Translations under genes and position numbers: made by a program | Notes under the pieces: model-generated | The model's input: the letters and a program-made list of their open reading frames with translations, nothing else | What the model was told of the DNA's origin: nothing | Databases searched by the model: none | Part shown: positions 16,030 through 64,000 of the stretch, piece after piece | Numbering within the stretch: the first letter of the stretch is position 1 | How the letters are laid out: the number at the start of each line of letters is the position of its first letter | Assembly (NCBI GenBank): GCA_949130485.1 | Contig: OX422190.1 | Coordinates: forward strand, 4,998,861 to 5,062,860 | DNA from: Agelas oroides | Lineage: Eukaryota > Porifera > Demospongiae > Agelasida > Agelasidae | Reading direction: 5' to 3' | DNA: 64,000 nt

Positions 16030-17345
16030 TCACAATAGAAAGTAATGTTGTAATAGGACTGAACAAAACACGGTATCGTGATCCGAATAGTATGTATCAG
16101 TAACTTGGATCTTAATGAACTGTGGTGGTATGTTACAGTAAACATGGTCAATCAGGGTACCTTTGTCTGTGGTGGGAGTGTGCACTAGCTGGGAATATCT
16201 ATACTGAGACATGAGGGTTACCATTCTCGAGTTAGGTTTGGCCAAAAGGTCTTCATTGAAATCACCCAACACAATGGATGGCATATCATAGCTTTCCAAA
16301 TGGTGTAATAATCCGGACATCATACATAGCAGGTTATCAATGGACACACTGGGGGACCTGTACACTACAGTGAGCCGGATGGAACATCCATTGGGCAATA
16401 AAAGGGTGGTTGAAAGGGCTTCAATTAGGACACCACTGGGTGAGAACTCAGTTTCATTAGATGCTTGCATGTTTGCTGGTATACTGATAAGAACTCCTCC
16501 TTTGTTATCACCAGATGTACGGTCAGATCTGATTACTTGGTGATTACCAAGAATAACCGGGGATGAAACTTGGGGTGTCAACCATGTTTCAGTAAAACAA
16601 AGGATACCAGCAGATGTAAGGGAGTGATCACATTGAATATCAGGTAGCTTAGCTACTAGTGACCTCACATTGAGTAGTGCAATACTGATGTAATTGTCAG
16701 GACATGTAAACATTGGAAGGGGGCTTAACAGGTTGTTATTCAATCTTTCCATTTCATCCTTTACATCTTGGCTAGCTTTGATGACTTTTCCATTGAAATT
16801 GATTATGTGCAAACCTTCAAGTTTCTTAACACGACTGAGTGCTACGTATGCTTGTCCAGGGTTGAAACGGTTACCTTTCATATCAACCACAATTTTGTCT
16901 AGTGTGAGACCTTGGACTTTATGGATAGTTATAGCCCATGCAAGGGTCAATGGGAATTGTAAACGGGTAACTTCTGAACCCCGCCTCCTTTTGGCTAGAA
17001 ACGCAACTTCGTGCTTTTTCAGGGGAATAGCATCAGAATATCCGTGACGGTACTGACTAGACTGTTTGGCTTTAGCACCAACATCTGGATTGTCAAACTT
17101 AACTAGGATATGAATGACTTTGTTGTCATTAGAGGTTACAACATGAACTACTTCACCTCTAGCACCATTGACGAGGCCATCGGACACATCTACATTGGTT
17201 ATCAACATTACTCTGGCCCCAATTGCTATTTTAAGGACACTGAGAAGGCCACCAGTTTCTGATCATTTGTCAGACAAGTTTGAGAGGTCAATATGGTCAA
17301 AGTTGATAGGCAAGCCCTGGGCAGTGTGATGGCTTGGTTTGTGTA
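16030..17345 (-). pseudogene. Helentron RepHel–endonuclease protein, C-terminal part
   Basis: The long open part (from 17208) starts inside the Pif1/RecD-like helicase of Helitrons: MLITNVDVSDGLVNGARGEV, then LAWAITIHKVQGLTLDKIV (motif V region) and GQAYVALSRVKKLEGLHI (motif VI). A linker follows, then a complete apurinic/EEP-type endonuclease: LLNVRSL, CFTETWL, VVYRSPS, VLGDFNEDL, GTLIDHVY and a final SDHD motif. Upstream in the same frame the expected sequence (NLSDK…SETGGLLSVLKIAIGARV) is interrupted by TGA near 17265, then by further stops near 17365. The TGA would be one C-to-T change from CGA, consistent with CpG decay. Endonuclease-fused RepHel is diagnostic of Helentrons. Not functional as read. 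Confidence 0.8.
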
Positions 17346-24140: not shown

Positions 24141-24329
24141 TGACTGTAGACCTTTGAACAGATTACTTTGTAAACACATAATGCACTTGCCAGTTTCTTC
24201 CAGGCCACGTTTGAGGGAGCATGCATTAACTATGGATGCTGAACAAGTTTGGAATTGCTACTAACTTTCCACACATTACTTACATGGCAGTTGTATTTAA
24301 TTTTACCTTTAACTTGTATATCCATGCAG

Positions 24330-24614
24330 GTACACCCAATTTAATGAGTTTAACTTTTGATTACCAGTCCAGGACCCTCACGTGCACCTCCACTGGTGGA
24401 CCTGCTACCACTGTCACCTGGAAGAGAGATGGGGTTGTGATAACTCTCAATGATACTTACCAGCAGACCAAGAGCTTAGTTGATGCTGTTAATGGTACCT
24501 ACCAGACAGTGCTCATCATTGACCCATCAGTCGGTTGGAGTGACATTGTGGGGACATACAACTGCACAGTGGAGAATGTCAGAGGAGAGTCCTCAGAGAC
24601 AGTGGTTGTACCAG
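24330..24614 (+). CDS. Ig-like (I-set type) exon B, copy 1, intact
   Basis: Acceptor TGCAG|GTACACCC and donor CCAG|GTGAGA bound a 285-bp exon in phase 1 on both sides, the usual phase for animal Ig exons. It encodes one Ig domain: LTCTSTGG with the first Cys, VTWKRDG with the core Trp, then DIVGTYNCTVEN with the Y-x-C second Cys. Several N-x-S/T sites suggest an extracellular protein. It is 78% or more like copy 2 at 30469 by eye. It lies between broken exons A1 and A2 on the same strand and presumably belongs to the receptor kinase locus ending at 33785, or to its upstream duplicate. Confidence 0.8.
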
Positions 24615-25361
24615 GTGAGACTTGAACCCTTATAACCTGACATAGGCACAGTTTAGTGTTATACTATTATAATGAACATCACATGTTAACCTCAGGCTTC
24701 TTAATTCACCTACTAACTCAGTTTACTAGTAGTTAACTAATGGTACTGCTTGTGTAAAGCTATTCTTATGCAATGATTCACAATACGACTGTCATTTCAG
24801 TTCTTATTGCAAGTCTACACCTCTCCCCAAGATGTTTAGGTTTTTATTACTGCAGATTTACCTCACCTAGAATGCTTAAGAGTTCAGTATTACTTAGCAA
24901 CAAAGCTTTATCTGACAGCGTTCTTTATCAAAACAAAGCACTGTCTACAGGTCGATCCAGAATGTCTGTATGCAGAAATCACTAGTTTTATGGCTAGGAA
25001 GGTCAAATTAGGAAGCCACCCGACATAATCATTGAGGGTGTACAGGGAAGCTTGAGAGAACAAGTCCCCTAGCCTCATCCCAGGCTCCTCCTCAGTAGAG
25101 TGGGGAGAGATCCTGGAATATCTGATCATGTGCACCATCACATTCTGTGTGTGGTTTTATGTGTGGTTTTGATTTAGTTTATTGGAGTGAGCATGAATGA
25201 GTGGGATTCACATGCATTTCATTCATGCATGAATGTCTAATAAGTCTGCAAAGCACGTTTGGGCCCCACTCTTAATAGACATTCAGTGATAGGACGCTTT
25301 GAACGCTGTGATGCCATCGAAATATGTCATGGAGTAACTTTGAATTATACATAGTTGCCAC

Positions 25362-32582: not shown

Positions 32583-33785
32583 GAAGGAACTACTAAGAAG
32601 GCAGCCAGTTCAAGTGCTGACCAGCCACTGTATGAAGTGTCAAACCTTTTGTATCAGAGACCAACTTGATCCTCCTAGTGCCACAAATGTGTCACAAGAA
32701 ACTGACATCTACACTATGCCAGACACCACCAGCTCACATACACTTAAGACACAGGGTGGAATCTATGAAGCAGTGTATAGTGAGCCAATTCAAACTTCAC
32801 TATTCATGGATGCAGTTGGCAGTCTCAGTGACTGTGAGGATTTGCAGCCTTATGCCCCCATTTACACCATCCCAACAGCCCTGCCTAAAAGTGAAGTGCT
32901 ATTAAAGGTCTCTGGAAGCAACATTCATTAAAGATTCATGAGCTTGGAATGGGAATATTTGGCAAGGTTATTCTAGCAGAGACAGTTGGTCTGAGTGCCA
33001 AAGATCCGAGGTTGAGTGAATCAGAGGATGACAAGAGCAAATCAACGCTAGTCGCTGTGAGGAAACTCAAATCAGGTGCTCCAAATGCCACTAAAGAAGC
33101 TTTTGAGAAAGAGGTCAATTTCATGTCAAGATTGACTGACAGAAATGTGATTCGTATACTTGGAGTCTGCTATGAGGATACCCCTTTCATTATGATGGAA
33201 TACATGGAGACAGGAGACCTCAACCAGTACCTTCAAAAGTTCAAAACGCTGAGCACAACCGATTCAGAGCCACAAGGTCAGATCACAACCAGCACCCTGG
33301 TTCATATGACCACACAGATCGCTAGTGCTATGAAGTACCTTGCAACACACAAATTTGTCCACAGAGACCTGGCAACACGAAACTGCCTCGTGGGTCCAAA
33401 CTACCTGGTGAAGATATCAAATTTTGGCATGAGTAGGAATCTGTATGACTCTCACTACTACCGCATTCATGGACATGCTCCCCTTCCAGTTCGTTGGATG
33501 TCGATTGAATGCTTTTACGGTAAATTCTCCCAGAAGTCTGATGTGTGGGCATTTGGTGTTACCATGTGGGAAATCTTCACCCTTGCGAAGGAACAGGCGT
33601 ACAGTGACATGCAGGTCATTGAGGATGCACTCAAAGGCAAGAATCGCAAGTTGTTAGCAAAACCAAAAATGTGCCCGCTCAAAGTGTATGAAACCATGCT
33701 AAAATGCTGGGCACATAACCCCAAGCAGCGAGCAACATTTGATGAACTCTTTCATTTGCTCACCTCCATTCACAGCGATCAATAA
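32583..33785 (+). pseudogene. Juxtamembrane plus DDR-like tyrosine kinase domain, degenerate (pseudokinase)
   Basis: Acceptor AAACAG|GAAGG starts the cytoplasmic exon. A juxtamembrane stretch with many tyrosines (DIYTMPDTTS, GGIYEAVYSEP, YAPIYTIPT) runs in one frame to a stop near 32929. The kinase is in another frame, so a one-base lesion lies between about 32895 and 32930. Kinase landmarks: GMGIFGKV loop, VAVRKLKSG, FVHRDLATRNCLV, KISNFGMSRNLY, LPVRWMSIECF, SDVWAFGVTMWEI, CPLKVYETMLKCW; stop TAA at 33783. The lysine of VAVK is Arg (AGG) and the Asp of DFG is Asn (AAT), both required for phosphotransfer, while the HRD Asp is kept. Closest family by motif is the discoidin-domain receptor group (HRDLATRNCLVG, DFGMSRNLY-type), but here with Ig rather than discoidin ectodomains. 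Confidence 0.8.
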
Positions 33786-39892: not shown

Positions 39893-41935
39893 TTAGTTAG
39901 TTAGTTAGTTAAATTTTCATTTTTAACAGGAAAAGTCCCTTCAGCCTGAAGGCTGGTCCACCAGGGAGTCCTGCATGACAAGTACACACAACAACAATTT
40001 AGACTATAATAATATTACAAGTTATAAAAAAATATAAATCTACTATAAATCCTGTATAATTAGTCATTGTTCTAACTATAACTTGTCCAGGAGGTATTTC
40101 TTCAAACATCTCTTGAAATTGTCCACCGAGCCCAGTTCCTTTAGTTCAACTGGCAGTTTGTTCCACTCCCATGCTCCTTTAAATGTAAATGACCTCCTGA
40201 AGAACTCAGTTTTTACCAAAGTCAGAAACAAGTTGTTGCTGCCACGTGTTTTGAAGTTCCCAATCTCCGCATTTGTTTTAAATCTATCACTCAAACATTG
40301 AGGGGCCTGCTTTCTTAAACACCTGTGCACCAATACCATGCGGAACATCTCTCTTCTAGTGCTTAGAGGCATCCAGTTCAGTCTTTTCCTAAGACCTTCA
40401 CTCGGAGTTCTGGGAGGCTGTGACAGGATGAGTCTCATGCCATAATTTTGAATCCTGTCAAGTCTGAGTTGCAACGCTAATGAGCACTCCTGCCAAACAA
40501 CAGAGCAGTAGTCTAGGTGCGGCTGCACGAGTGCACAAAATATTCTCTTCTTTGTCGAACTTGGAAGGACATTTCTCAATCGCTTCAACTTTGCAAGCCC
40601 TGCAAAGCAGTTCCTCCTCACTGCCTCCACCTGGTCCTGCCATGTTAGCCCGTCATCAATCCAGACTCCCAAGTATTTCACCTTCTTACTTCTTGCAACT
40701 TTCGTTCCTCCCATTCTTACATCCACCTGCTCCAATTCTTGTAACCTCCGCCTTCTACTCAGCAGCAACATCTGGGTCTTTTCTTCATTGAGCCTGAGTT
40801 TGTTATCAATCACCCACTTTGCCACTCCCTCTAAGTCACTAGTAAGACCATCTTCCAAGCCACGTACATCCTTACTCACAAGGGAGAGTGTTGTATCATC
40901 AGCATACTGTTGAACAAAACAGTGTTGCACAGCTTGAGGGAGATCATTTGCATAGATTATGAACAGCAGTGGCCCCAAAATTGAGCCCTGTGGTACCCCT
41001 CTTCTGATGGTAGCCCAGTCAGACTTAGCATTCTCAACACATACTCTCTGCCTTCTTTCGTACAAATAATCTGTAAACCACTTCAGCTCCTTTCCTCTAA
41101 CACCATATTTTGCCATTTTCAACAACAGTAATGAGTGGTCCACCATGTCAAAAGCCTTACTAAAATCCAAATAAACAGCCCCCACCACTTTGTCCTCATC
41201 CATTGCCTTTCTCCATCCATCAACCATATTTACTAGCACATCCTGTGTAGAGTGCCCTGGTCTGAAACCAAATTGATTTGGCTCTAAAATGTTGTTAAGG
41301 TGAAGGAAAGTATACAGCTGTTTGTGTATCAACCTCTCAAATACCTTGGCAACAACTGGTAATACAGAAACCGGTCTATAGTTCACTACAATCTCGCTAT
41401 CACCCCCTTTAGGCACAGGTGTAATATGTGCCAACTTCCATTCACCAGGCAGCTCACCACTTTCCAAACTATAGTTGAACAATGATGTCAAGCTACCAGA
41501 AATGCCAGCTGCAGCAACACGAAGAATCTTAGCGCTTACTTCATCTGAGCTCACTGCTTTGTTAGGATCAAGACTTCTCAGCAGTGCTAAGACCTCATCC
41601 TCCTTAACCCTGTCAAATTTAAACTCTTTCTCACATCCCCTAAGCCTTGCACAAACATCAGCTGAGTTGACCTCACTATCTGAATCCCCAACTATTGATG
41701 AGAAATACCTGCCAAACTCGTCAGCAATATCCTCTCTCTCTGTCAGCAAATGTGAATCTGTTCTTATAGAGTTAATACCATGCTTGCAAGTGCTACCCAG
41801 TAGCCTGTTCACCTCTCTCCATGCCTTCTTTGGATTTCCCTTTGACTCCTCACTAAGCTCCTCAAAGTACTGAATCTTTGCCTTCCGTATTCTCTGTGTC
41901 ACCAAGTTTCTCACACTCTTGTACTTAGGATAAGC
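39893..41935 (-). mobile_element. 5'-truncated CR1/L2-like non-LTR retrotransposon
   Basis: The minus-strand reverse transcriptase frame is followed by a 3' UTR with a CCTTCAGGCTGAAGG hairpin and a terminal (AACT)n-type microsatellite at 39893–39911. The endonuclease domain is absent, so the copy is 5'-truncated, the usual outcome of target-primed integration. Confidence 0.75.
40076..41914 (-). CDS. Non-LTR retrotransposon reverse transcriptase (truncated ORF2)
   Basis: A 612-codon open frame without its true start; a stop lies about 18 bp upstream in the same frame. RT motifs in order: LAHITPVPKGGD, NYRPVSVLPVVAKVFERLI, NQFGFRPGHSTQD, GAVYLDFSKAFDMVDHSLLL (motif A), RRGVPQGSILGPLLFIIYAND (motif B), QQYADDTTLSL (catalytic YADD), LNEEKTQMLL, KVKYLGVWIDDGLTW. 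The C-terminus (GAWEWNKLPVELKELGSVDN, LKKYLL) is typical of the CR1/L2/Jockey-like clades. The frame is fully open, suggesting recent insertion. Copies cDNA at a nicked target in the nucleus. Lacks the endonuclease, so not autonomous. Confidence 0.9.
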   Translation of the reverse strand: MRNLVTQRIRKAKIQYFEELSEESKGNPKKAWREVNRLLGSTCKHGINSIRTDSHLLTEREDIADEFGRYFSSIVGDSDSEVNSADVCARLRGCEKEFKFDRVKEDEVLALLRSLDPNKAVSSDEVSAKILRVAAAGISGSLTSLFNYSLESGELPGEWKLAHITPVPKGGDSEIVVNYRPVSVLPVVAKVFERLIHKQLYTFLHLNNILEPNQFGFRPGHSTQDVLVNMVDGWRKAMDEDKVVGAVYLDFSKAFDMVDHSLLLLKMAKYGVRGKELKWFTDYLYERRQRVCVENAKSDWATIRRGVPQGSILGPLLFIIYANDLPQAVQHCFVQQYADDTTLSLVSKDVRGLEDGLTSDLEGVAKWVIDNKLRLNEEKTQMLLLSRRRRLQELEQVDVRMGGTKVARSKKVKYLGVWIDDGLTWQDQVEAVRRNCFAGLAKLKRLRNVLPSSTKKRIFCALVQPHLDYCSVVWQECSLALQLRLDRIQNYGMRLILSQPPRTPSEGLRKRLNWMPLSTRREMFRMVLVHRCLRKQAPQCLSDRFKTNAEIGNFKTRGSNNLFLTLVKTEFFRRSFTFKGAWEWNKLPVELKELGSVDNFKRCLKKYLLDKL

Positions 41936-50126: not shown

Positions 50127-50401
50127 CTAACCTTGGGATGTTTTTCTTCTCAACCTTTCTGCCAGAAGTATGTATCCCATTTCTTCCACAGCTTTTGCCA
50201 GCTTAATCCAGGAGACTTCTGCTGTATTACGACACCACCAGTCCAGCACCTCAATCTTGCGACGCTGGTTCTGAGGATAATCGTTCTCAATTTCTTTCAG
50301 CTTAGCGTGTGGTACTCCCAGTTCCAGCCCCAGTTGGTGCCATTCTGTCACTTCCCCCAATTCATTCTGAATCTCCTTCAGTTCTGGATGTGTAGATGTG
50401 G
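50127..50401 (-). CDS. Death-domain terminal exon
   Basis: Acceptor TTTCCAG|CCACATC; stop TAG at 50127–50129. The exon encodes about 90 residues with a Death fold pattern: WHQLGLELGVPHAKLKEIEN, then a helix with VLDWWCRN and WIKLAKAVEEMGYILLAERL. Death domains self-associate or bind other Death domains in apoptosis and innate immune signalling. The spacing W-x2-L-x2-x-LG and the W in the fifth helix support Death rather than CARD. It follows directly on the COR exon in phase 1. Confidence 0.8.
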
Positions 50402-53400
50402 CTGGAAAGCAGATGGGTGAGAGAGTTGCAGTTTGCACATGAAATTAACTTGCACATTTGCATGAAGCACATTCCACTTGAAACAACGCTATTCACTTTT
50501 GGAGCACCACCAAACAAACTTCCTTGCAAGTATGTGGCACACACACACAAGCACAAAACAAATACTGTGATGTCTAATTTCAACACAGGCACCACCAAAC
50601 AGTGAACACAATTTGTGAGAAAGTATGCGCTACAGCTATACACAAGTGCACAATACATACTGTGTCTAATGCACACAACCATGTAGTGTTTTCCGCTTCC
50701 ACTGTGTAAACTGACATCAAATGAGCTCATGCAACTCAACAAACACCATAGCTGCTACTTCAAACCATATGTGACAATTCTGTTTTAAGATGCTGGTGTG
50801 GCCCAAATGTCCCACAATGAGATAGTACTAATTGTAAAATTCAAGTTGCCTCCCACGGTTTCAAGTATACACTGCTGGTTGAGGAAGGTGCACACAAGCA
50901 CTTGGTAACACACAGGGTAATATGATTTTTACCTGATGCATTGGTTGAGGGAAGTTCTTCAAACCACATCTCCTGCACATTGCTGAGTTTACCACCACAC
51001 TCTGAGGTTTCGGTACACACGAGATAGCAGTTTTCTCCCACAGTATATTGTGTGGCTGCATGTGGTGGTGAGGAGCCGCATGCGCATAAAAACCCTGCTT
51101 CAGGTTTGGAGTTATTGTACTTGAGCTTATGATAAGCATTTTCTAGTCCAGTGAAGATTGGTTTTCGAACCTCACACAGGATCTCTGGGTGTGGAAGTGC
51201 TTTGAGATGTACCTCGAAGAAAGAGAAAGAATCAATAAGAGTAACGATGGCGGGCTTCCCTGGGAGCTTAAACTGGATGCAGTTGTGAGAAACACAAGCT
51301 AGATTGCCATCTTTTGTCTGCAGTTTCCACCTACATGCGGTGAGAAGGTGGACAACCAGTGCACAAAAGACACCGTTCTGGGCACACTTGCTGGGAAAGT
51401 GAACTAGCAAGGGAGCAATAGAGGATCTAGGCCTAGTGATGCTTTCAGCTGGAAGCATTGGCAAGAGACACGGCATGAAGTATTCATTAGCAGTGAGTGG
51501 TGCAAAAATGAGAAGGCCTTTGAAAAGCTCAACAAGGTGGGTAGGGGTAAAAAGGCCAGGAATGTAATGGGAAGCAAACCTCTCATCTTGAAGCATCTGG
51601 AATGTGACTACGCCTTTGTCTTGAAAATCGTTTCCACTCACCTGTCAGGGGTTCCTTGACATGACCTTGTCTCAGCTTGTAGCTGTAAGCAACCAGCTCC
51701 GTGAGCTTGTTTAAAAGAGTTTGTGCCTCAGCGAAAATGACCCCTGGAAGCAAGGAAGGGTAGTAGAGCAGAATGTTCAGCTCATTCAGATAATTCAGAG
51801 CTGCATTGAGGCCCTCACTGCTGATTTTGAGCCTGGTTGCAATATCCCGGCACTCCTGCAAACTAATTACCCCCTTTCTGGCCAACATTCTGATATCATT
51901 CTCAAGCAAAAACCACCCAACAGGAATCTTGTAGGGGTCGGGAGCAAATTTTGATATTTGCTCACAAATTTTCGAGGCTACTTCAAAGTCTTCTTCAGTA
52001 GGATTCTTTGCATTGATTGGAAAGATCACCTCGTCGAAAGGACGGTAGTAGACCAACTGATCATGAAAGTGTGGTCTAAACATTTCAAGAAGCCTCTTAT
52101 TCTTATCAGCTCGGGTTTCTGAGCATTTGGCCTCCAGATCTCGATGTGTAGCAACGAACATCATGTGAGACTGGTTCCCCTCGTTTGATGGATGTGAGTG
52201 TATCATTTGAATGCAGCGCTGTAAGATTTGGTCGTTTTGAAGACAACACAGTTGTGGATCACCGCATCTTTTCCCTTCTTCGTAGTATTCAATCATCGGC
52301 TGTTGATCAAGGCGTTCGGAAAGCTTCAACACAATCATCGTTACAGTGGTGTTCCGAATAAAAGCTGGGAGAAGCTCGTGAAATTGGGGCTGACCCCCAC
52401 TATCAATGAAGTTGATCCACTGGATTTCAAAAAACTTCTTTGAGCCAGAAGATCGCTCTACAAGCCGAACTAACTGCTCACTGGAAGGACTAGGCTGTGA
52501 TGAAGCTGAAGCTTTTGGCAGGTTCTCCTTGCGCAGTTTCTCCTTCCCCTTCTTCCTGTTCCCATTATCTTTGCGCACACTCTTCTTGGGCACATTCTCC
52601 TCACTCAGGCTTTTCTTGAGCTGCTCAAATCCTACCCTCAAAGCTTCCATTTGCTCTTTCTCCTCCATTGGTACTCCAGCTATGAGTGCCTCAGCTAACA
52701 TTTCCATAAACTTTTCGGGTGAGATTCGAATCCACCCGGTGAGGTCTTTGCCAAATAAAGCACGAGAGATGGCCCTAATAGAAGCCTCAGCTAGCGGAGT
52801 GCTACAGCGAGAGCTAGGCGGTTCTTCACGAAGCAGGCGGTATTTCGTAGACGTCTTCCCTGAACCAGCTGCACCTAGTGTGAGGATTTTGACTATGTTG
52901 CACAGAATATATCCTTTCTCTAGGGCTTCATCCAAGATCTGCTTGCCAGTGCGAGTTTCACGTGTATCTGTAATGCACAGATGGATGAAATTACTTGTGA
53001 AAATAAGATACACCGAAAAGGCGTCATGTGTACAAGAACCAGAGTCTCACACATCATGGTAGATGAAACCTTATGTAATATAGGCTGTTTTGATGAGTGC
53101 ACTCTTCTGATTACATAAATGTACATTTGTCCTACACAAAACCATGATTTGATATGGCAGTAGCTAGCAGACTTTGTATTAAAATCTCAACTGGAGTTAG
53201 GGCACAAGTGTTCTTTCGTGGGCCATTAGTGAATGATCAGTAGGTGAGGCTATTGCTATGGACATAGCTTCATGGTCAATATGTTTCTAATATCATACTG
53301 CCTGTATAATCATCACAGTAAGCATCTATATACCAGCCTACAGCCATCCAAGAACTCAATGGTTCTCATCAAATAAGGTACTAGTGATTTGAAGCTGTTA

Positions 53401-56400
53401 GTATATACCTCATGGAGTCAATCGCCAAGAAAAAGACTACTTACATGGGCACACAATGAGCATTATACGTAACAGCTCTAAGGTGAGTTTGCTAGTCTTG
53501 GTTTGTGGGTATAGATAAGCTTCCAAGGATATAGGAATGCTAGAAGCAAGCATATATGTCAACTGCCTCAATCACAAGAGTGATGTACTGGCCAGATTAT
53601 CAATTGTTTATACATGTTCATTATATCTCATTAGTTGCAATATACAATTGAGTAAAGCCAAGAACATCCATAAGAGTTCCTATAGTACCACTTAGGACTT
53701 CAACTCACCATTATCTTTAGTCTTTGTCTGCATGGTTACACTGGGTTGGCTGCGACCTACTGCATTCTCCACCCTCACCCTCACTTCATATTCAGTGGAG
53801 GGAGCGAGGCTATCCAGAGTTGTGGAGAAGACATCCTCTCCAAGTAAGTGCATCTCAAATGGGGATGCAGGAACCAAAGCAGGGCGATACTCCACCACAT
53901 AGCCAGTGATGGAGCTGCCCCCATCATTAGTGCACGCAGCCCACTTTACTGATATGGAGGTGGAGGATGTTGCCTCAACAGCCAAAATAGTAGGTGCAGC
54001 AGGGACTAATGTGTGTGTGATAACAGGCAAGAGTAGTGTTGACCAAACCTTCAAAGTTGGTTGCCAAACCCCACCCTCTTACAAGGAAAATGACACACAC
54101 TTGAAGTTTCATGAACTTGTCACAGGAGTAATGAACCACCAGCATTTAAAATAATTGTGCAACACCCCCACTCAAAACAGTTAACAATACCTGGGCAAGG
54201 GTACAAAATTTAACTTTTGTAAGAAAAAGGCTGCACAACTTTGCAATGTCACTGGTGCTTACAACTGAAATCAAGGATGGGAAGAGTGCATACCAAACCT
54301 GGTCTTGATGGGGGGAGGGGGGGGGGGGGGGGGGGGGGGGGTGGGCGGTGTAAGTTTACTCATTAAGTCACGATAGTTGTGGAAATGCTTACTGGTATTG
54401 CTTGATGTTATAAGCAAGCCAGCTAACCTTTACATATGGTGAGCTACAGCCAACAGTGTGAATGTTGACAAACAATGCATTCTTTTTTAGTATTTGGTAA
54501 TAGACAAATGTGACTCAGGAAAGTTTGCAAGTGTGACCAGGGTGGAGGTTGGGATAAGAATCCTTAAATACACAAAAACTCTGCTTTGGTGTACTTCTTG
54601 AAAAACGAAAATATTGAGGCCAAAGCACACCCTTACATCTACTTCACAAGTAAACCCTTACCTAGCTAAACCAGCAACAAGGAGATAGACATGACAGAGA
54701 CAATATACATGCACTGGTAATGTTAAGGGGAATCTTGACTGTGTCAGAACTATGATAAACAGTTAACGATATGTAATAATGGTATATGTACATCGTGTGT
54801 AACTCCAGTTGATGCACCCTCCACATGCATCATACGCAGATCATGAGTGTACTAGACTACTCCAGTAAACAGCCACAAGGTGGCCTAGTTATGTTCAGTA
54901 CAGTACCTGATCTAAAGTTCATGAGCATTAACATTTGTATCACCTTCCGAAAATATTCACCGACATATCACAACCCCTACACATAACACACTGACCCCTC
55001 CCCTTTTTCTCCACACACACCTACCCACACACACACACACACACACATACATACCCAAAAGCATGCACATCCACCCACACACTCCTAGACACCTACATAC
55101 CAGTTTCTTCAGGAGACTGTCTCTGTTCTTGCTGCCTTCCAGTGGACTCACTTTCCTGCATTAATCCATCACATCAATACCCAGTCATAACACTGATATA
55201 GTCTGAATCATTTACTATATATTATTATTATAATACAGTCCAGATACATCAAATTAATATTATCTATGCTCACATTGTTGGTCTGTCCCCTAACCACCCT
55301 TGAGTTCACACATCAGAGACTCATTGCTCACTGTGGCCTTTTAGTAATATTTTATGTCCACACAATGTAAACTGTTTACTAATATTAAAAAAAATCCCAC
55401 ACTAAAATAAAAGTGGGTGCTTAAATCTATACTCATATTATCCTTGCCTAAACTTCTGTCTAGCCCCTAAAGTAGCTCCTCACCACCCACTTCATGCATT
55501 AAGAGGAGACATGTACTCCTCAGTCACCAAGGCCAGTTTAATGATGATTCATGCAAACTCTCACATATGAAACAAATGGCGGCTATGATGTGTCTGTTAG
55601 CGTGGATGCTTCTCCACTTGACACCACAACTGTCTTCAATGGTACAGTCTCACGTACTTACCCCCAACATGTTTGGATCAGCAGCTCTCTTGAGGTATGC
55701 CACTACTTTGTCATGACCTCCTAAAGCTGCCACATCCTGGGGAGTCCTCTGATGGAAGCAAAACAACGAGTAATCGCAAAGCAACACAAATATAACAAAG
55801 TGACTGACATCGCTAATTCTAATGCAATGTCTCAATCTATTTTGCAAATTACACATTCGGTAAATACAGGGCACCTTCGTAGGTACTTGTGAATGAGGCT
55901 AACTCAGACTCAAGGAGCAGTACTAATCTCAGACACACTTATCTACTCCATGAGGAACATTGGATACCAAACTGTATATCTCCTATTTCCCTGTATGTTA
56001 TGAAGCTTTCCAACAACAGCATTGCTAACATATCTTCTGAATTACAGACTGAGTGTCACACTAGCTGTGCACTGTACAAATACACAACTGCAAATATTTC
56101 TACTACAGTGACTGCACACCCACGATATAGATTCTGGAAGTGATTTCGTTATGACTGTATAACTAGTAATTACTTATATGGTCCTCCATAAATGTCCAGT
56201 TAGCCTACTATAAATTGGCTGCAAAATTAGTGTAACGAGAGTTAAGCTTTAAAGCTTGTCAATGCCCAATCTTCATACAGATTAGGCCCTGATGGACTAT
56301 GCTAGCATAATTTTGAGAATAATAGGTAGCAAAAAGAATCGAGAATTATTCAAGAATAATAGTAGTCATTTTGGTCCCAAAAAGAATACACTTTGTTGGG

Positions 56401-59400
56401 GTCACATGAATGAGTCCCACCCCTTTCCTTATTAATTATTAATTCTACGGAAAAGAATCTATACTTATTGGCAGTTATTTCTTCACTACTTGTATTGCTT
56501 GAATCGCTTCTTTTGGACCAGTTGCGATTTACTTTTCAAAAACGTTATTATTATGTTATTAAATACATACTTTAATGAGAATAATAGGTGCAATAAAAAG
56601 AATAATAGGTAGAATGAAAAGAATAATAGGTAAGACTTTCAAGAACAAAAGAATAGAATAAAAAGGTAGAAAAAAAGAATAGTCCATCAAGGCCTAATAC
56701 AGATTATGGAATGTGGCGGAATATGTGACACTAGTTGGGCATTGTATGAGTACACACACTCACTAATTAGCAAGGTATCCAACTGACAGTATACATGTAA
56801 TTAGTTATACAAGCAGATACCAGCCTCTTTGTCAGGTACCTGGGAACTCAAACTCTAATCAGCATTACAGTCTCATTCACTTACCCCACCATTATCTTTG
56901 ATGTTGATGTTGGCTCCTTTCTCTGTAAGGTACTGCACAGTGTCAGTATGGCCTCTCATAGCTGCCAGGTATAGGGGAGTCAACTGATGGGGAGAAAGAA
57001 GTGAACAAATTTCAAGTATAGTCTACCATAAATAGTTAGCCTACTATAAAATTGGCTGCAAAATTAGTGTAACGAGAGTTAAGCTTTAAAGCTTGTCAAT
57101 GCACATTCTTCATACAGATTATGGAATGTGGCGGAATATGTGACACTAGTTAGGCATTGTATGAGTACATACACTCACTAATTAACAAGGTATCCAACTG
57201 ACAGTATACATGTAATTAGTTATACAAGCAGATACCAGCCACTTTGTCAGGTACCTGGGAACTCAAACTCTAATCAGCATTACAGTCTCATTCACTTACC
57301 CCACCATTATCTTTGATGTTGATGTTGGCTCCTTTCTCTGTAAGGTACTGCACAGTGTCAGTATGGCCTCTCATAGCTGCCAGGTATAGGGGAGTCAACT
57401 GATGGGGAGAAAGAAGTGAACAAATTTCAAGTATAGTCTACCATAAATAGTTAGCCTACTATAAAATTGGCTGCAAAATTAGTGTAACGAGAGTTAAGCT
57501 TTAAAGCTTGTCAATGCACATTCTTCATACAGATTATGGAATGTGGCGGAATATGTGACACTAGTTAGGCATTGTATGAGTACATACACTCACTAATTAA
57601 CAAGGTATCCAACTGACAGTATACATGTAATTAGTTATACAAGCAGATACCAGCCACTTTGTCAGGTACCTGGGAACTCAAACTCTAATCAGCATTACAG
57701 TCTCATTCACTTACCCCACCATTATCTTTGATGTTGATGTTGGCTCCTTTCTCTGTAAGGTACTGCACAGTGTCAGTATGGCCTCTCATAGCTGCCAGGT
57801 GTAGGGGAGTCAACTGATGGGGAGAAAGAAGTGAACAAATTTCAAGTATAGTCTACCATAAATAGTTAGCCTACTATAAAAGTGGCTGCAAAATTAGTGT
57901 AACGATAGTTAAGCTTTAAAGCTTGTCAATGCACAATCTTCATACAGATTATGGAATGTGGCGGAATATGTGACACTAGTTGGGCATTGTATGAGTACAT
58001 ACACTCACTAATTAACAAGGTATCCAACTGACAGTATACATGTAATTAGTTATACAAGCAGATACCAGCCACTTTGTCAGGTACCTGGGAACTCAAACTC
58101 TAATCAGCATTACAGTCTCATTCACTTACCCCACGATTATCTTTGATGTTGATGTCGGCTCCTTTCTCCGTAAGATATTGCACAGTGTCAGTATGGCCAT
58201 TGCCAGCTGCCTGGTGTAGGGGAGTCCACTGATGGGGAGAAAGAAGTGAACAAATTTCAAGTATAGTCTACCATAAATAGTTAGCCTACTATAAAAGTGG
58301 CTGCAAAATTAGTGTAACGATAGTTAAGCTTTAAAGCTTGTCAATGCACAATCTTCATACAGATTCTGGAATGTGGCGGAATATGTGACACCAGTTGGGC
58401 ATTGTATGAGTACATACACTCACTAATTAACAAGGTATCCAAACTGACAGTATACATGCAATTAGTTATACAAGTAGATACCAGCCTCTTTGTCAGGTAC
58501 CTGGGAACTCAAACTCTAATCAGCATTACAGTCTCATTCACTTACCCCATCATCATCTTTGATGTTGATGTCAGCGCCTTTCTCCGTAAGATACTGCACA
58601 GTGTCAGTATGGCCACTGCCAGCTGCGTGGTGTAGGGGAGTGTACTGATGGGGAGAAATAAGTGAACAAATTTGAAGTATAGTCTACCATAAATAGTTAG
58701 CCTACTATAAAAGTGGCTGCAAAATTAGTGTAACGAGAGTTAAGCTTTAAAGCTTGTCAATGCACAATCTTCATACAGATTCTGGAATGTGGCGGAATAT
58801 GTGACACTAGTTATGCATTGTATGAGTACACACACTCACTAATTAACAAGGTATCCAACTGACAGTATACATGTAATTAGTACAGATACCAGCCTCTTTC
58901 TCAGGTACCTGGGAACTCAAACTCTAATCAGCATTACAGTCTCATTCACTTACCCCAACATTATCTTTGATGTTGATGTCGGCTCCTTTTTCTGTAAGAT
59001 ACTGCACAGTGTCAGTATGGCCACTGCCAGCTGCCAGGTGTAGGGGAGTCCACTGATGGGGAGAAAGAAGGGACCAAAATTTCAAGTATAGTCTACCATA
59101 AATAGTTAGCCTACTATAAACTTGGCTGCAAAATTAGTGTAACGAGATTGATACTTTAAACCTTACAATCTTCATACAGATTCTGGAATGTGGCGGAATA
59201 TGTGACACCAGTTGGGCATTGTATGAGTACATACACTCACTAATTAGCAAGGTATCCAACTGACAGTATACATGTAATTAGTTATACAAGTAGATACCAG
59301 CCTCTTTGTCAGGTACCTGGGAACTCAAACTCTAATCAGCATTACAGTCTCATTCACTTACCCCATCATCATCTTTGATGTTGATGTCAGCGCCTTTCTC

Positions 59401-62400
59401 CGTAAGATACTGCACAGTGTCAGTATGGCCACTGCCAGCTGCCCGGTGTAGGGGAGTGTACTGATGGGGAGAAAGAAGTGAACAAATTTAAAGTATAGTC
59501 TACCATAAATAGTTAGCCTACTATAAAAGTGGCTGCAAAATTAGTGTAACGAGAGTTAAGCTTTAAAGCTTGTCAATGCACAATCTTCATACAGATTCTG
59601 GAATGTGGCGGAATATGTGACACTAGTTGGGCATTGTATGAGTACATACACTCACTAATTAACAAGGTATCCAACTGACAGTATACATGTAATTAGTTAT
59701 ACAAGCAGATACCAGCCACTTTGTCAGGTACCTGGGAACTCAAACTCTAATCAGGATTACAGTCTCATTCACTTACCCCAGCATCAGTTTGGATGTGGAT
59801 GTCAGCTCCTTTCTCCGTAAGATACTGCACAGTGTCAGTATGGCCTCTGTCAGCTGCCAGGTGGAGGGGAGTCCACTGATGGGGAGAAACAAGTGAACAA
59901 ATTTCAAGTATAGTCTACCATAAATAGTTAGCCTACTATAAAGTTGGCTGCAAAATTAGTGCAACGAGAGTGATAGTTTAAAGCTTGCCAATGTACAATC
60001 TTCATACAGATTCTGGAATGTGGCACAATATGTCACACTAGTTGGGCATTGTATGAGTACATACACTCACTAATTAACAAGGTATCCAACTGACAGTATA
60101 CATGCAATTAGTTATACAAGCAGATACCAGCCACTTTGTCAGGTACCTGGGAACTCAAACTCTAATCAGCATTACAGTCTCATTCACTTACCCCATCATC
60201 ATCTTTGATGTTGATGTCGGCTCCTTTCTCCGTAAGATACTGCACAGTGTCAGTATGGCCATTGAGAGCTGCCCAGTGTAGGGGAGTCCTCTGATGGGGA
60301 GAAAGAAGTGAACAAATTTCAAGTATAGTCTACCATAAATAGTTAGCCTACTATAAAATTGGCTGCAAAATTAGTGTAACGAGAGTTAAGCTTTAAAGCT
60401 TGTCAATGCACAATCTTCATACAGATTCTGGAATGTGGCGGAATATGTGACACTAGTTGGGCATTGTATGAGTACATACACTCACTAATTAACAAGGTAT
60501 CCAACTGACAGTATACATGTTGTAATTAGTTATACAAGTAGATACCAGCCACTTTGTCAGGTACCTGGGAACTCAAACTCTAATCAGCATTACAGTCTCA
60601 TTCACTTACCCCATCATCATCTTTGATGTTGATGTCGGCTCCTTTCTCCGTAAGATACTGCACAGTGTCAGTATGGCCATTGAGAGCTGCCCAGTGTAGG
60701 GGAGTCCTCTGATGGGGAGAAAGAAGTGAACAAATTTCAAGTACAGTCCACCATAAATAGCTAGCCTATTATAAAATTGGCTGCAAAATTAGTGTAACGA
60801 GAGTTAAGCTTTAAAGCTTGTCAATGTACAATCTTCATACACACTCTGGAATGTGGCACAATATGTGACACTAGTTGGGCATTGTATGAGTACATACACT
60901 CACTAATTAACAAGGTATCCAACTGACAGTATACATGTAATTAGTTATACAAGTAGATACCAGCCACTTTGTCAGGTACCTGGGAACTCAAACTCTAATC
61001 AGCATTACAGTCTCATTCACTTACCCCATCATAATCTTTGATGGTGATGTCAGCTCCTTTCTCCGTAAGATACTGCACAGTGTCAGTATGGCCACTGTCA
61101 GCTGCCCAGTGTAGGATAGTGTACTGATGGGGAGAAAGAAGTGAACAAATTTCAAGTACAGTCCACCATAAATAGTTAGCCTACTATAAAATTGGCTGCA
61201 AAATTAGTGTAACGAGAGTTAAGCTTTAAAGCTTGTCAATGCACAATCTTCATACAGATTCTGGAATGTGGCGGAATATGTGACACTAGTTAGGCATTGT
61301 ATGAGTACACACACTCACTAATTAACAAGGTATCCAACTGACAGTATACATGTTGTAATTAGTTATACAAGCAGATACCAGCCACTTTGTCAGGTACCTG
61401 GGAACTCAAACTCTAATCAGCACTACAGTCTCATTCACTTACCCCACCATTAGTTTGGATGTTGATATCAGCTCCTTTCTCCGTAAGATACTGCACGGTG
61501 TCAGTATGGCCTCTGTCAGCTGCCAGGTGGAGGGGAGTCCACTGATGGGGAGAAACAAGTGAACAAATTTCAAGTATAGTCTACCATAAATAGTTAGCCT
61601 ACTATAAAGTTGGCTGCAAAATTAGTGCAACGAGAGTGATAGTTTAAAGCTTGCCAATGTACAATCTTCATACAGATTCTGGAATGTGGCACAATATGTC
61701 ACACTAGTTGGGCATTGTATGAGTACATACACTCACTAATTAACAAGGTATCCAACTGACAGTATACATGTAATTAGTTATACAAGCAGATACCAGCCAC
61801 TTTGTCAGGTACCTGGGAACTCAAACTCTAATCAGCATTACAGTCTCATTCACTTACCCCATCATCATCTTTGATGTTGATGTCGGCTCCTTTCTCCGTA
61901 AGATACTGCACAGTGTCAGTATGGCCATTGAGAGCTGCCCAGTGTAGGGGAGTCCTCTGATGGGGAGAAAGAAGTGAACAAATTTCAAGTATAGTCTACC
62001 ATAAATAGTTAGCCTACTATAAAATTGGCTGCAAAATTAGTGTAACGAGAGTTAAGCTTTAAAGCTTGTCAATGCACAATCTTCATACAGATTCTGGAAT
62101 GTGGCGGAATATGTGACACTAGTTGGGCATTGTATGAGTACATACACTCACTAATTAACAAGGTATCCAACTGACAGTATACATGTAATTAGTTATACAA
62201 GTAGATACCAGCCACTTTGTCAGGTACCTGGGAACTCAAACTCTAATCAGCATTACAGTCTCATTCACTTACCTCAACAGAATCTTTGATGTTGATGTCG
62301 GCTCCTTTTTCTGTAAGATACTGCACAGTGTCAGTATGGCCACTGTGAGCTGCCAGGAGTAGGGGAGTCCACTGATGGGGAGAAAGAAGTGAACAAATTT

Positions 62401-63274
62401 CAAGTATAGTCTACCATAAATAGTTAGCCTACTAAAAAAGTGGCTGCAAAATTAGTGTAACGAGAGTTAAGCTTTAAAGCTTGTCAATGCACAATCTTCA
62501 TACAGACTCTGGAATGTGGCGGAATATGTGACACTAGTTAGGCATTGTATGAGTACATACACTCACTAATTAACAAGGTATCCAACTGTCAGTATACATG
62601 TAATTAGTTATACAAGTAGATACCAGCCTCTTTGTCAGGTACCTGGGAACTCAAACTCTAATCAGCATTACAGTCTCATTCACTTACCCCACGATTATCT
62701 TTGATGTTGATGTCAGCTACTTTCTCTGTAAGATACTGCACAGTGTCAGTATGGCCACTGTAAGCTGCCCAGTGTAGGGGAGTCCTCTGATGGGGAGAAA
62801 GAAGGGAACAAATTTCAAGTATAGTCTACCATAAATAGTTAGCCTACTATAAAATTGGCTGCAAAATTAGTGTAACGAGAGTTAAGCTTTGAAGCTTGTC
62901 AATGCACAATCTTCATACAAATTCCGGAATGTGGCGGAATATGTGACACTAGTTGGGGATTATATGGGTATACATACTAACTGTAAATTTATTCTGAATG
63001 ATTTCTGCTTGTGTGACTTCCAAGTATAGTGTAATTATTGATTGCAACAAGTCGTTTGGGAAATCAGTTATTATAATACCACTACTAAACAGTGGATGTC
63101 AGTCAGGTACTTGGGAACAAGGTTAAATCACACTCATACTAAACTACAGTCAGTAGTACAGTCTATTTCACTTACCCCAAACTCATCTTTGATGTGGATG
63201 TTGGCTCCCTTCTCAATAAGACATTTCACTGTGTTCACATGGCCTCTGTCAGCTGCCCAGTGTAGGGGAGGCAT
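50127..63274 (-). CDS. Ankyrin-array / FN3 / ROC-COR GTPase / Death-domain protein (5' end outside window)
   Basis: One minus-strand gene is supported by 21 exons whose borders and phases all fit: sixteen 99-bp ankyrin exons (phase 0–0), a capping ankyrin exon (55662–55748, 0–0), a linker (55101–55155, 0–1), FN3 (53709–54005, 1–1), a 2-kb GTPase/COR exon (50933–52967, 1–1) and a Death-domain exon with the stop (50127–50401). The order ANK–ROC–COR–Death matches the C-terminal half of DAPK1; the FN3 domain and long ankyrin array do not. A cytoplasmic signalling or sensor role is inferred: ankyrins bind a ligand, the ROC GTPase switches, the Death domain recruits partners. One extra T (51624–51627) breaks the frame between ROC and COR; all else is open. 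No start exon is visible; more N-terminal exons must lie beyond 64000. Confidence 0.85.
50933..52967 (-). CDS. ROC-like GTPase and COR domain exon, frameshifted
   Basis: Acceptor CATTACAG|ATACACG, donor GCATCAG|GTAAAA. P-loop LGAAGSGKTS (Walker A), a Lys/Ser-rich low-complexity insert (about residues 140–190), the switch-II-like WINFIDSGGQPQFHELLPAF (DxGGQ), VATHRD in the place of NKxD/TKxD, then a COR-like half (GWFLLENDIRMLARKGVIS, NELNILLYYP, GVIFAEAQTLLNKLTELVAY). At 51624–51627 a T4 run shifts the frame: before it GEWKRF, after it, in the next frame, QDKGVVTFQMLQDERFASHY. With one T fewer the exon is open throughout. It could be a true allele, a pseudogenising change or an assembly error. 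Confidence 0.75.
53010..53708. other. Intron between FN3 and GTPase exons
   Basis: Lies between donor AATG|GTGAGT (53708) and acceptor (52968). No other feature seen. Confidence 0.5.
53709..54005 (-). CDS. Fibronectin type III exon
   Basis: Exon of exactly 99 codons, phase 1–1 (acceptor ACATTAG|TCCCTG, donor AATG|GTGAGT). Sequence pattern of FN3: PAAPTILAVEATSSTSISVKW, GGSSITGYVVEYRP, LDSLAPSTEYEVRVRVENAV with the conserved W, Y and L/Y-E-V-R-V. Joins the ankyrin array to the GTPase. FN3 modules are usually extracellular but also occur inside the cell; no signal peptide or membrane segment is seen in the part of the gene available. Confidence 0.85.
54310..54341. repeat. Poly(G) tract with one A, about 32 bp
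   Basis: Within the intron between the linker and FN3 exons; a potential G-quadruplex on the plus strand, so it is C-rich in the transcript of the minus-strand gene. Confidence 0.8.
55101..55155 (-). CDS. Short hydrophilic linker exon
   Basis: 55 bp bounded by CTTTCCTGCAG-type acceptor (complement at 55156) and donor AAACTG|GTATGT; phase 0 in, 1 out, exactly what the neighbours require. Encodes ESESTGRQQEQRQSPEET. (CA)n microsatellite lies just 3' at 55013–55047. Confidence 0.65.
55662..55748 (-). CDS. Capping (last) ankyrin repeat exon
   Basis: 87 bp, phase 0–0, encodes a short divergent repeat: RTPQDVAALGGHDKVVAYLK then RAADPNMLG. The loss of the TPLH and GADINI consensus and its shorter length fit a C-terminal cap. 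Its intron and exon do not share the 415-bp unit sequence of the array, so it is the older part. Confidence 0.8.
56160..56280 (-). repeat. Truncated intron unit of the ankyrin array
   Basis: The intron sequence of the 415-bp unit (AGTTAGCCTACTATAAATTG, TTAAGCTTTAAAGCTTGTCA) resumes here outside the last array exon, is interrupted by a hAT MITE at 56283, and continues at 56697 up to the exon at 56885. The unit is therefore older than the MITE. Confidence 0.7.
56283..56696. mobile_element. hAT MITE inserted in an array intron
   Basis: TAGGCCCTGATGGACTAT ... ATAGTCCATCAAGGCCTA, flanked by ATACAGAT on both sides (56275–56282, 56697–56704). 414 bp, A-rich with repeated AGAATAATAGGTA motifs. The 8-bp duplication sits in the intron unit where all other copies read CATACAGATT without interruption, so the pre-insertion site is documented fifteen times in the same window. 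Confidence 0.9.
56885..63274 (-). CDS. Tandem array of sixteen single-ankyrin exons
   Basis: Exons (each 99 bp, phase 0) in protein order with residues at positions 1/6/9–10/31–32: 63176–63274 M/W/DR/EF; 62698–62796 R/W/YS/NR; 62273–62371 W/L/HS/SV; 61858–61956 R/W/LN/DD; 61443–61541 W/L/DR/NG; 61025–61123 Y/W/DS/YD; 60610–60708 R/W/LN/DD; 60192–60290 R/W/LN/DD; 59777–59875 W/L/DR/DA; 59362–59460 Y/R/GS/DD; 58954–59052 W/L/GS/NV; 58546–58644 Y/H/GS/DD; 58130–58228 W/Q/GN/NR; 57715–57813, 57300–57398 and 56885–56983 L/L/MR/NG. The rest of each repeat is nearly constant: TPLH, then AA, then GHTDTVQYLTEKGADINI with KD. All end in |GTAAGT and start after CATCAG|. The first exon is the most divergent (HVNTVKCLIEKGANIHI). 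Standard 33-residue ankyrin repeats, helix-turn-helix plus loop, protein-binding. Confidence 0.95.
56885..63274 (-). repeat. 415-bp tandem exon+intron repeat units
   Basis: Exon starts are spaced 415, 415, 415, 416, 408, 408, 415, 415, 418, 415, 418, 415, 415, 425 and 478 bp. Introns of about 316 bp are nearly identical, carrying GTCAGGTACCTGGGAACTCA, ATTCTGGAATGTGGCGGAAT and, in most, the perfect 14-bp palindrome AAGCTTTAAAGCTT. Small indels (e.g. an extra TGT in the introns 5' of the 60192 and 61025 exons) mark sub-lineages of units. Confidence 0.95.
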
Positions 63275-64000
63275 CTGATGGGGCGAAAGAACAAATATAA
63301 CATGGTCCACTATGAATGTCCAGTTACCCTAGTCTACAGCTGGCTGCCATACTGAAGGTGACAAGCTACTCAATAATGGCAAAGTAAGCATTGATACAGA
63401 CTAGCTGTGTAGTACATGTACTAACTGTAAGTACAGGTTGCCACATCCTGAGCATGACCTGTTGGCTGACACCTTGTCCTATCTAGTCATTAAGCATGAA
63501 TATAAGCACCCCACGAATATAAGCACCCATTGTGGCTGCTAATTTCGAAAATAAGCTCCGGTGCTTAATATCCTGATTTTACAGTATTTGTGGTGCTTTG
63601 ACCAACATCAACTCCAAACAGCAGCACAAGTGACGTCAGTTTTACTGTAAAGTCATTCCTGTAACTAGGGCATGTTGTATAGAGGTTACACAACTGGTTT
63701 AGCTACATGCCCTAGTAACAAGAACGTGTACATTTAATGGATATATAAATAGGATATCTTGTTGTCACATACTAGTGCAGTCTTGCTTGTGTCAGTGCAA
63801 TTGTTTGTGACATTCAGTACGCTCTAGAGGTTACCAACAGTGTGTGTGTAACCTCCACAACATGCCCTGCTTTACATGCCCTAGTACAGAGGATATCTTG
63901 CTGGCTACTGTGACACCGCGTTTAGTGTAGTGTTGTGTCTTGAAATCCAGGATACACTCAAAACTGAAGTCAGCAATACAAGTTTAGTCAATAATAATAT
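63275..64000. other. Upstream intron of the ankyrin gene, continuing beyond the window
   Basis: No further exon recognised. Contains half of a possible MITE (GAATATAAGCACCC repeats at 63499–63530, ending TTTACAGTA) and inverted ACATGCCCTAGTAAC / GTAACTAGGGCATGT copies (about 63660–63890). Confidence 0.4.

Follow-up and report, generated by a model that had tools for sequence, protein, structure and literature searches.

The brown-algal LRR-ROCO genes have been described as carrying one repeat per symmetrical exon, with shuffling of exons and with diversifying selection acting on the repeats (Teng et al., 2024; PMC11378527). They are numerous and have been proposed to encode immune receptors; their leucine-rich repeat (LRR) exons are 72 base pairs (bp) long and of phase 2, alternative splicing is documented, and LRR-ROC-COR is the sole architecture reported in that paper (PMC11378527). 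Fungal NLR proteins are reported to contain highly conserved ankyrin (ANK), TPR, or WD repeats whose number varies among isolates (Dyrka et al., 2014; PMC4986451). Five positions of the ANK repeats were found to be positively selected, all on the concave face with one exception, and exchange of repeats within and between genes was shown for WD and suggested for ANK (PMC4986451). The output of het-d and het-e is given as cell death or incompatibility (PMC12222747). Designed ankyrin repeat proteins (DARPins) keep the scaffold constant and vary six interaction residues in each 33-residue repeat (PMC9590205), while in the sponge Amphimedon a lineage-specific expansion of Death-like/TRADD-N proteins with ankyrin repeats has been proposed to serve immunity (PMC8195603). 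Here we describe an array of single-repeat ankyrin exons from another sponge, Agelas oroides, found in a stretch of 64,000 nucleotides that is referred to as the window (C8:4998861-5062860, where C8 is contig OX422190.1). As far as it can be read from the genes, the design is already known from the brown-algal LRR-ROCO and fungal ANK-NLR genes and is not unprecedented.

The genome examined is a single assembly of 259 Mb in 141 contigs, and coordinates are window positions unless a contig is named. A first-pass annotation had proposed sixteen phase-0 exons of 99 bp, each encoding one ankyrin repeat, and this was confirmed for length, splice signals, and frame in all of them. The 16 exons within 56885-63274 (minus strand, as are the array and all features of its gene described below) are exactly 99 bp, in phase 0 and open, and their splice signals are intact, with CAG directly before and GTAAGTGA directly after each exon. 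Fifteen of them form a tandem array (56885-62786) with a unit spacing of 408-418 bp; the 14 introns inside it measure 309-319 bp each. The remaining exon (63176-63274) is a diverged repeat which stands outside the array; the other paralogs have a matching exon at their head. A seventeenth ankyrin exon, shorter (29 codons) and capping, is located at about 55662-55748. The array exons encode 33-residue repeats with the TPLH, AA..GH, and GAD.N consensus of ankyrin repeats, and a PDB sequence search matched ankyrin-1 at 3.1e-171 and also DARPins. After the array follow, on the minus strand, the capping repeat, a fibronectin type III (FN3) exon, a Roc-like GTPase exon, and a Death domain. No RNA families were found in 55500-64000, the exon pattern had no matches in genome_contigs, and an intron 26-mer had none in viral_contigs.

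The genome contains at least five array-bearing loci on C8 and two more on C3. Those on C8, P1 to P5, have 19, 4, 15, 9, and 9 array exons of 99 bp, respectively, P3 being the window locus, so that repeat number ranges from 4 to 19 among these paralogs; the C3 loci P6 and P7 have 11 and 3. The array exons of P4 are split in two blocks, each headed by its own first exon, and the P1 array displays a three-unit higher-order pattern. Exons were collected only if they had exactly 99 bp between the splice signals. One P5 exon (C8:5239312-5239413) with intact-looking splice signals is apparently one codon longer and lies outside all counts; 99 bp is thus not absolute in the family. The C8 set comprises 56 array exons, and the intron analyses use 49 units, omitting the seven array exons that have no complete array intron following them. 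No stop codon is found in any of the 56 exons, and all 49 introns are of the GT-AG type. According to tblastn all seven loci have the upstream exons as well as the capping exon, the latter with 75-90% identity in the other six. The FN3 and GTPase exons are found downstream of the array in P1-P6, and the FN3 exon of P1, P2, P4, P5, and P6 is 92-98% identical to that of the window (tblastn). In P7 neither was found by tblastn downstream of the array within the stretch examined. It is highly improbable that the array is an assembly artefact, that is, a collapsed or chimeric repeat. The three terminal units of the window array are 99-100% identical across 300 bp, and the unit counts of such arrays are hard to assemble, but 45 of the 56 C8 array exons are distinct at the DNA level, all are open, and the pattern recurs in several loci.

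The scaffold of the repeats had been described as nearly invariant, with changes clustered at codons 1, 6, 9, 10, and 31-32, and this is what was found. Ranked by amino-acid diversity, the first six positions of the window array are precisely 9, 1, 32, 6, 10, and 31, and the same six codons fill the top six places in P1 as they do in P3. Five of them are within the top six in P2 and P6 and four in P4 and P5, the rest being codons 5, 8, 12, or 30. Of the 61 extra amino-acid states in the 56 C8 exons, 36 fall in the top six codons, a concentration that was reached in one of 200,000 multinomial draws when each draw was allowed to choose its own top six. There are 41 distinct six-residue combinations among these exons, and all four bases are present at six of the 12 first and second positions of the six codons (49 units).

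The proportion of nonsynonymous differences (pN) in the 56 exons is 0.390 at the six codons and 0.036 at the other 27, while the proportion of synonymous differences (pS) over all codons is 0.120. The ratio of six-codon pN to all-codon pS is 3.47 in P1, 3.64 in P2, 3.60 in P3, 3.35 in P4, 3.33 in P5, and 5.78 in P6; a check of the dN/dS type, as had been suggested for the array, thus gives values above 1 at the six codons in all six arrays tested. By minimum-change counting, the six codons of the window array have undergone 22 nonsynonymous changes (14.7 sites), vs. 10 synonymous changes in the array (22.7 sites; p=0.0007), and the same test is significant in six of six loci (five on C8, one on C3), with p from 0.018 to 0.00016. 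Since the six codons had originally been picked from the window, the test was repeated with the positions randomised in DARPins, which we take to be 2, 3, 5, 13, 14, and 33 and which were not picked from these data. The ratio was then 3.09 in the window, 2.76 for all of C8, and 4.82 in P6.

The C8 paralogs are young and their output module is conserved, whereas divergence at the six codons is much greater. Between C8 paralogs the GTPase exon has a pS of 0.046 and a pN/pS of 0.24, and the FN3 exon a pS of 0.044 and a pN/pS of 0.33. Array introns differ by 3.1% within C8, two single-copy introns by 3.0-4.4% between C8 loci except for P1-P4 at 0.1-0.7%, and intron 1 by 3.3-10.2%. Fitch parsimony on three intron trees gives 11.9, 6.0, and 5.5 steps per site at the variable first and second positions vs. 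0.5-0.7 in the introns. These counts serve as support only; exon and intron histories are unlinked and synonymous change in exons also exceeds that in introns, so the intron tree was not retained as a neutral history. A mutator bias was considered and rejected, as transitions/transversions are 11/16 at the variable sites vs. 36/40 in introns, which reveals no clear bias. Purifying selection on the scaffold and diversifying selection on the six codons are both well supported.

A more general explanation is that constraint in any ankyrin repeat is simply lowest at these six positions, and that young repeats pass through a relaxed or positively selected phase with no recognition arms race involved. 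Accelerated divergence among repeats has been reported to be universal and to reflect positive selection in part (Persi et al., 2016; PMC5120217), which would fit such generic evolution. Eight ankyrin stretches in long open frames of the same genome were used as controls (L001-L006, L008, and L043; L007 was excluded for overlap with L006, and L001 and L002, which overlap by about 0.6 kb, are not fully independent). Their six-codon ratio is 0.85-1.14 overall, but their pS of 0.32-0.66 means that they are partly saturated. When only pairs with 1-10 differences are compared, the control ratio rises to 1.86, the six codons accounting for 50% of the nonsynonymous differences (62 pairs), vs. a ratio of 3.13 and 74% in C8 (99 pairs). 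Tolerance at the six positions is therefore general, while the excess above it is special to the arrays; chance or generic tolerance was accordingly rejected as a full account, the eight controls indicating that it explains part of the pattern and not all. Relaxed constraint cannot lift pN over the synonymous rate, and pN is here about 3.3 times the exon pS and about eight times the GTPase pS. Moreover, the first ankyrin exons of the same genes (n=10, among them 63176-63274), which lie outside the arrays, have a six-codon ratio of only 1.20. We therefore consider generic repeat evolution unlikely as the explanation, although it keeps a real chance.

The elevated close-pair ratio of the controls is one of several observations that weigh against diversified recognition. 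Array exons carry synonymous change at about three times the level of change in introns (17 per 22.4 sites vs. 76 per 316, p=0.0001), and nonsynonymous change in the scaffold (26 per 61.6 sites) is also above that of introns (p=0.012), which means that the intron yardstick alone overstates selection. This excess of exons over introns could stem from older exon variants being retained via exchange, or from change focused on exons. The absence of six-residue combinations common to two loci is at chance level (P=0.61), codon 12 matches some of the six in variability in P4 and P5, and exon position 6 falls outside the DARPin positions. Finally, the GTPase copy of the window is frameshifted and that of P5 is broken too, as discussed below.

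The proposal that the array diversifies by duplication and replacement of exons finds evident support in the near-identical terminal units, in a decay of linkage, and in a tract shared by P1 and P4. Distances between exons show no correlation with those between introns (Mantel r -0.02), four-gamete pairs are common, and mean r2, which is 0.10-0.14 for sites within 30 bp, drops to 0.01-0.09 at larger separations; uncorrelated distances and linkage decay within about 30 bp are what exchange of units predicts. P1 and P4 differ by 0-0.6% over about 3.5 kb (C8:4872001-4875500 in P1), while most flanking 500-bp bins differ by about 1-4%, which indicates exchange between the loci and resembles a gene-conversion tract. 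The array introns of P6 (C3:1706633-1710791) differ from those of C8 by 7.5%, vs. 14-23% for single-copy introns of the same genes. This low divergence may reflect either recent interchromosomal exchange or constraint on array introns, and the intron yardstick was for that reason applied within C8 alone. The whole pattern is consistent with unequal crossing-over together with short conversion tracts, the mechanism itself being inferred.

When it comes to the downstream module, the FN3 exon of the window (53713-54009) matches Pfam fn3 at 1.7e-15. The Roc-like GTPase and the start of COR occupy a 487-codon open frame (51586-53046), with a match to Pfam Roc at 4.7e-05 that is under the cut-off of the model. 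The frame is then lost in a T run (51620-51630) which, in alignment with the paralogs, is one base longer than in P1, P2, P4, P5, and P6, and the ROC-COR exon continues for 267 codons in another frame (50844-51644). The same exon forms one intact frame of 709-716 codons in P1, P2, and P4, while P5 carries several breaks in it. The Death domain exon (50133-50402) matches Pfam Death at 1.9e-08, over the cut-off, and is 99% identical in P1 and P4.

The assignment to Roc is weak by Pfam. Roc was matched in eight of 12 aligned GTPase members at E<=0.1 (best 4.6e-05), with the window piece and member L032 below the curated cut-off, and the Roc domain of LRRK2 was matched at E 0.022. The aligned members have invariant GxAGxGK and DxGGQ columns as well as a T-(H)-x-D motif. 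COR-A was matched in three of the 12 at E<=0.1 (best 9.4e-08), with none in the results for the first member. A reading of the GTPase as a NACHT domain, i.e., an NTPase of the NLR type, was rejected, as neither NACHT nor NB-ARC is among the Pfam families matched by the window pieces or the 12 members. The GTPase piece has 115 matches genome-wide, several genes being matched in two or more pieces, and thus belongs to a large gene family; most of these matches sit in open frames of 450-880 codons.

The Roc-like GTPase is followed by the Death domain in P1, P3, and P4; tblastn detected none in P2 or P5. In the C3 loci a Death domain that is 48-49% identical precedes the first FN3 exon by about 440 bp (C3:1717558-1717836 and C3:2024559-2024837) and is perhaps a second, N-terminal one. 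The link between the array and a Death/GTPase output that had been proposed is therefore in line with the order in P1 and P4, but is doubtful for the window copy with its frameshift. The longer T run may be real or may be an assembly error. If it is real, the window locus could be decaying, its array inherited from or exchanged with intact paralogs and no full protein made from this copy; the shift relative to five aligned paralogs and the broken P5 exon would agree with this. However, none of the 16 ankyrin exons or their splice signals is damaged, a single indel in a short run may be an assembly error, and an ANK-FN3 protein could still act without ROC-COR-Death. Decay of the locus is quite unlikely on balance.

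Recognition is the best explanation of the pattern, and it is reasonably probable that the array serves as sensor in a cytosolic ANK-FN3-ROC/COR-Death protein and forms a germline-diversified recognition surface. The six side chains are expected to lie on the concave face when mapped by repeat register. Unequal crossing-over and short gene-conversion tracts would recombine whole or partial exons, both inside a locus and from one locus to another, and so give new six-residue combinations while the repeats stay stackable. Each repeat is one symmetrical exon, and repeat number differs between paralogs. The concave face of the solenoid would then bind variable ligands, and binding would switch the Roc-like GTPase and recruit Death-domain partners. 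Such a protein would probably be an intracellular receptor for immunity or allorecognition. Diversifying selection and exchange of exon units, as put forward in the first-pass annotation, have thus stood, and it is the output of the window copy that the frameshift makes doubtful.

Ankyrin arrays are general protein binders, and the genes could instead form a family of scaffolds or adaptors diversified for many self partners rather than for recognition of non-self. This is improbable, since a Death domain and a conserved output paired with a rapidly evolving sensor would seem to suit recognition better. A more far-reaching proposal is an anticipatory, antibody-like repertoire of ankyrin exons in which diversification restricted to exons would yield paratopes of six residues, symmetrical exons might also be skipped somatically, and one conserved ROC-COR-Death switch serves all. 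Exon-directed mutation or short-tract conversion is proposed here because exons exceed introns even at synonymous sites; we regard this as speculative, with a small chance of being correct.

Some other features were observed in the window and the genome. An open frame at 40079-41935 (minus strand) encodes a reverse transcriptase (RVT_1, 2.1e-39), probably of a non-LTR (long terminal repeat) retrotransposon. At 16033-17262 (minus strand) a Pif1-type helicase domain is fused to an endonuclease/exonuclease/phosphatase domain, a fusion that is presumably Helitron-like. An immunoglobulin-domain exon (24230-24622) and a tyrosine kinase domain exon (32895-33782), both on the plus strand, are possibly parts of a single receptor tyrosine kinase gene. 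Ankyrin open frames that are very long (at most 5971 codons) and contain numerous close repeats are found at C3:17.58-17.69 Mb and C1:2.7-5.1 Mb; some of these served as controls, L004 and L043 among them.

A literature search, judged by titles and the openings of abstracts and with subscription papers mostly outside its coverage, gave no animal precedent. The order ANK-ROC-COR-Death is shared with DAPK1, which has the order kinase-ANK-ROC-COR-Death. DAPK1 has a fixed ANK domain and a kinase, while the sponge genes have a hypervariable array and FN3, and no kinase was noticed in the frames upstream to C8:5075800 (inspected by eye, two frames being scanned with Pfam). The Amphimedon expansion likewise pairs Death-like domains with ankyrin repeats in one lineage. 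Those are TRADD-N proteins for which ROC-COR is unmentioned in the available part of the source; the TRADD-N model is not among the Pfam matches obtained here, where no search was aimed at it.

The variable positions had been equated with the DARPin set, and five of the six do coincide with it (chance of at least five of six, 1.5e-4). The equation fails for exon position 6, which is absent from that set, and for exon position 29 (repeat position 33), which is nearly fixed (K in 50 and Q in six of the 56 exons); repeat position 10 varies in place of 33. The sponge repeats further differ from DARPins in being natural, in numbering up to 19 per array, and in their limited choice of codons. If the recognition function holds, they would be natural DARPin-like binding scaffolds, and a testable candidate for recognition diversity without antibodies in an animal.

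The fungal NLRs and the sponge genes share near-identical repeats, a varying repeat number (among isolates in the former and paralogs in the latter), and a few selected positions. The switch is a NACHT or NB-ARC NTPase in fungi and a Roc-like GTPase in the sponge, and variation between individuals is documented for fungi. The brown-algal LRR-ROCO genes, which are reportedly also the subject of Zambounis et al. 2012 as cited in Teng et al. 2024, resemble the sponge genes in having a repeat sensor with a ROC-COR GTPase, one symmetrical exon per repeat, exon shuffling, diversifying selection, many genes, and a proposed role as immune receptors. They differ in that the sponge array is made of ankyrin repeats in 99-bp phase-0 exons and is accompanied by FN3 and Death domains. 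If the recognition function is correct, brown algae, fungi, and an animal would be three lineages that have reached one design, in which nearly identical repeats present a hypervariable surface to the ligand and are joined to a switch that is a GTPase or an NTPase, and two of the three would share the ROC-COR switch and the placement of one repeat in each exon.

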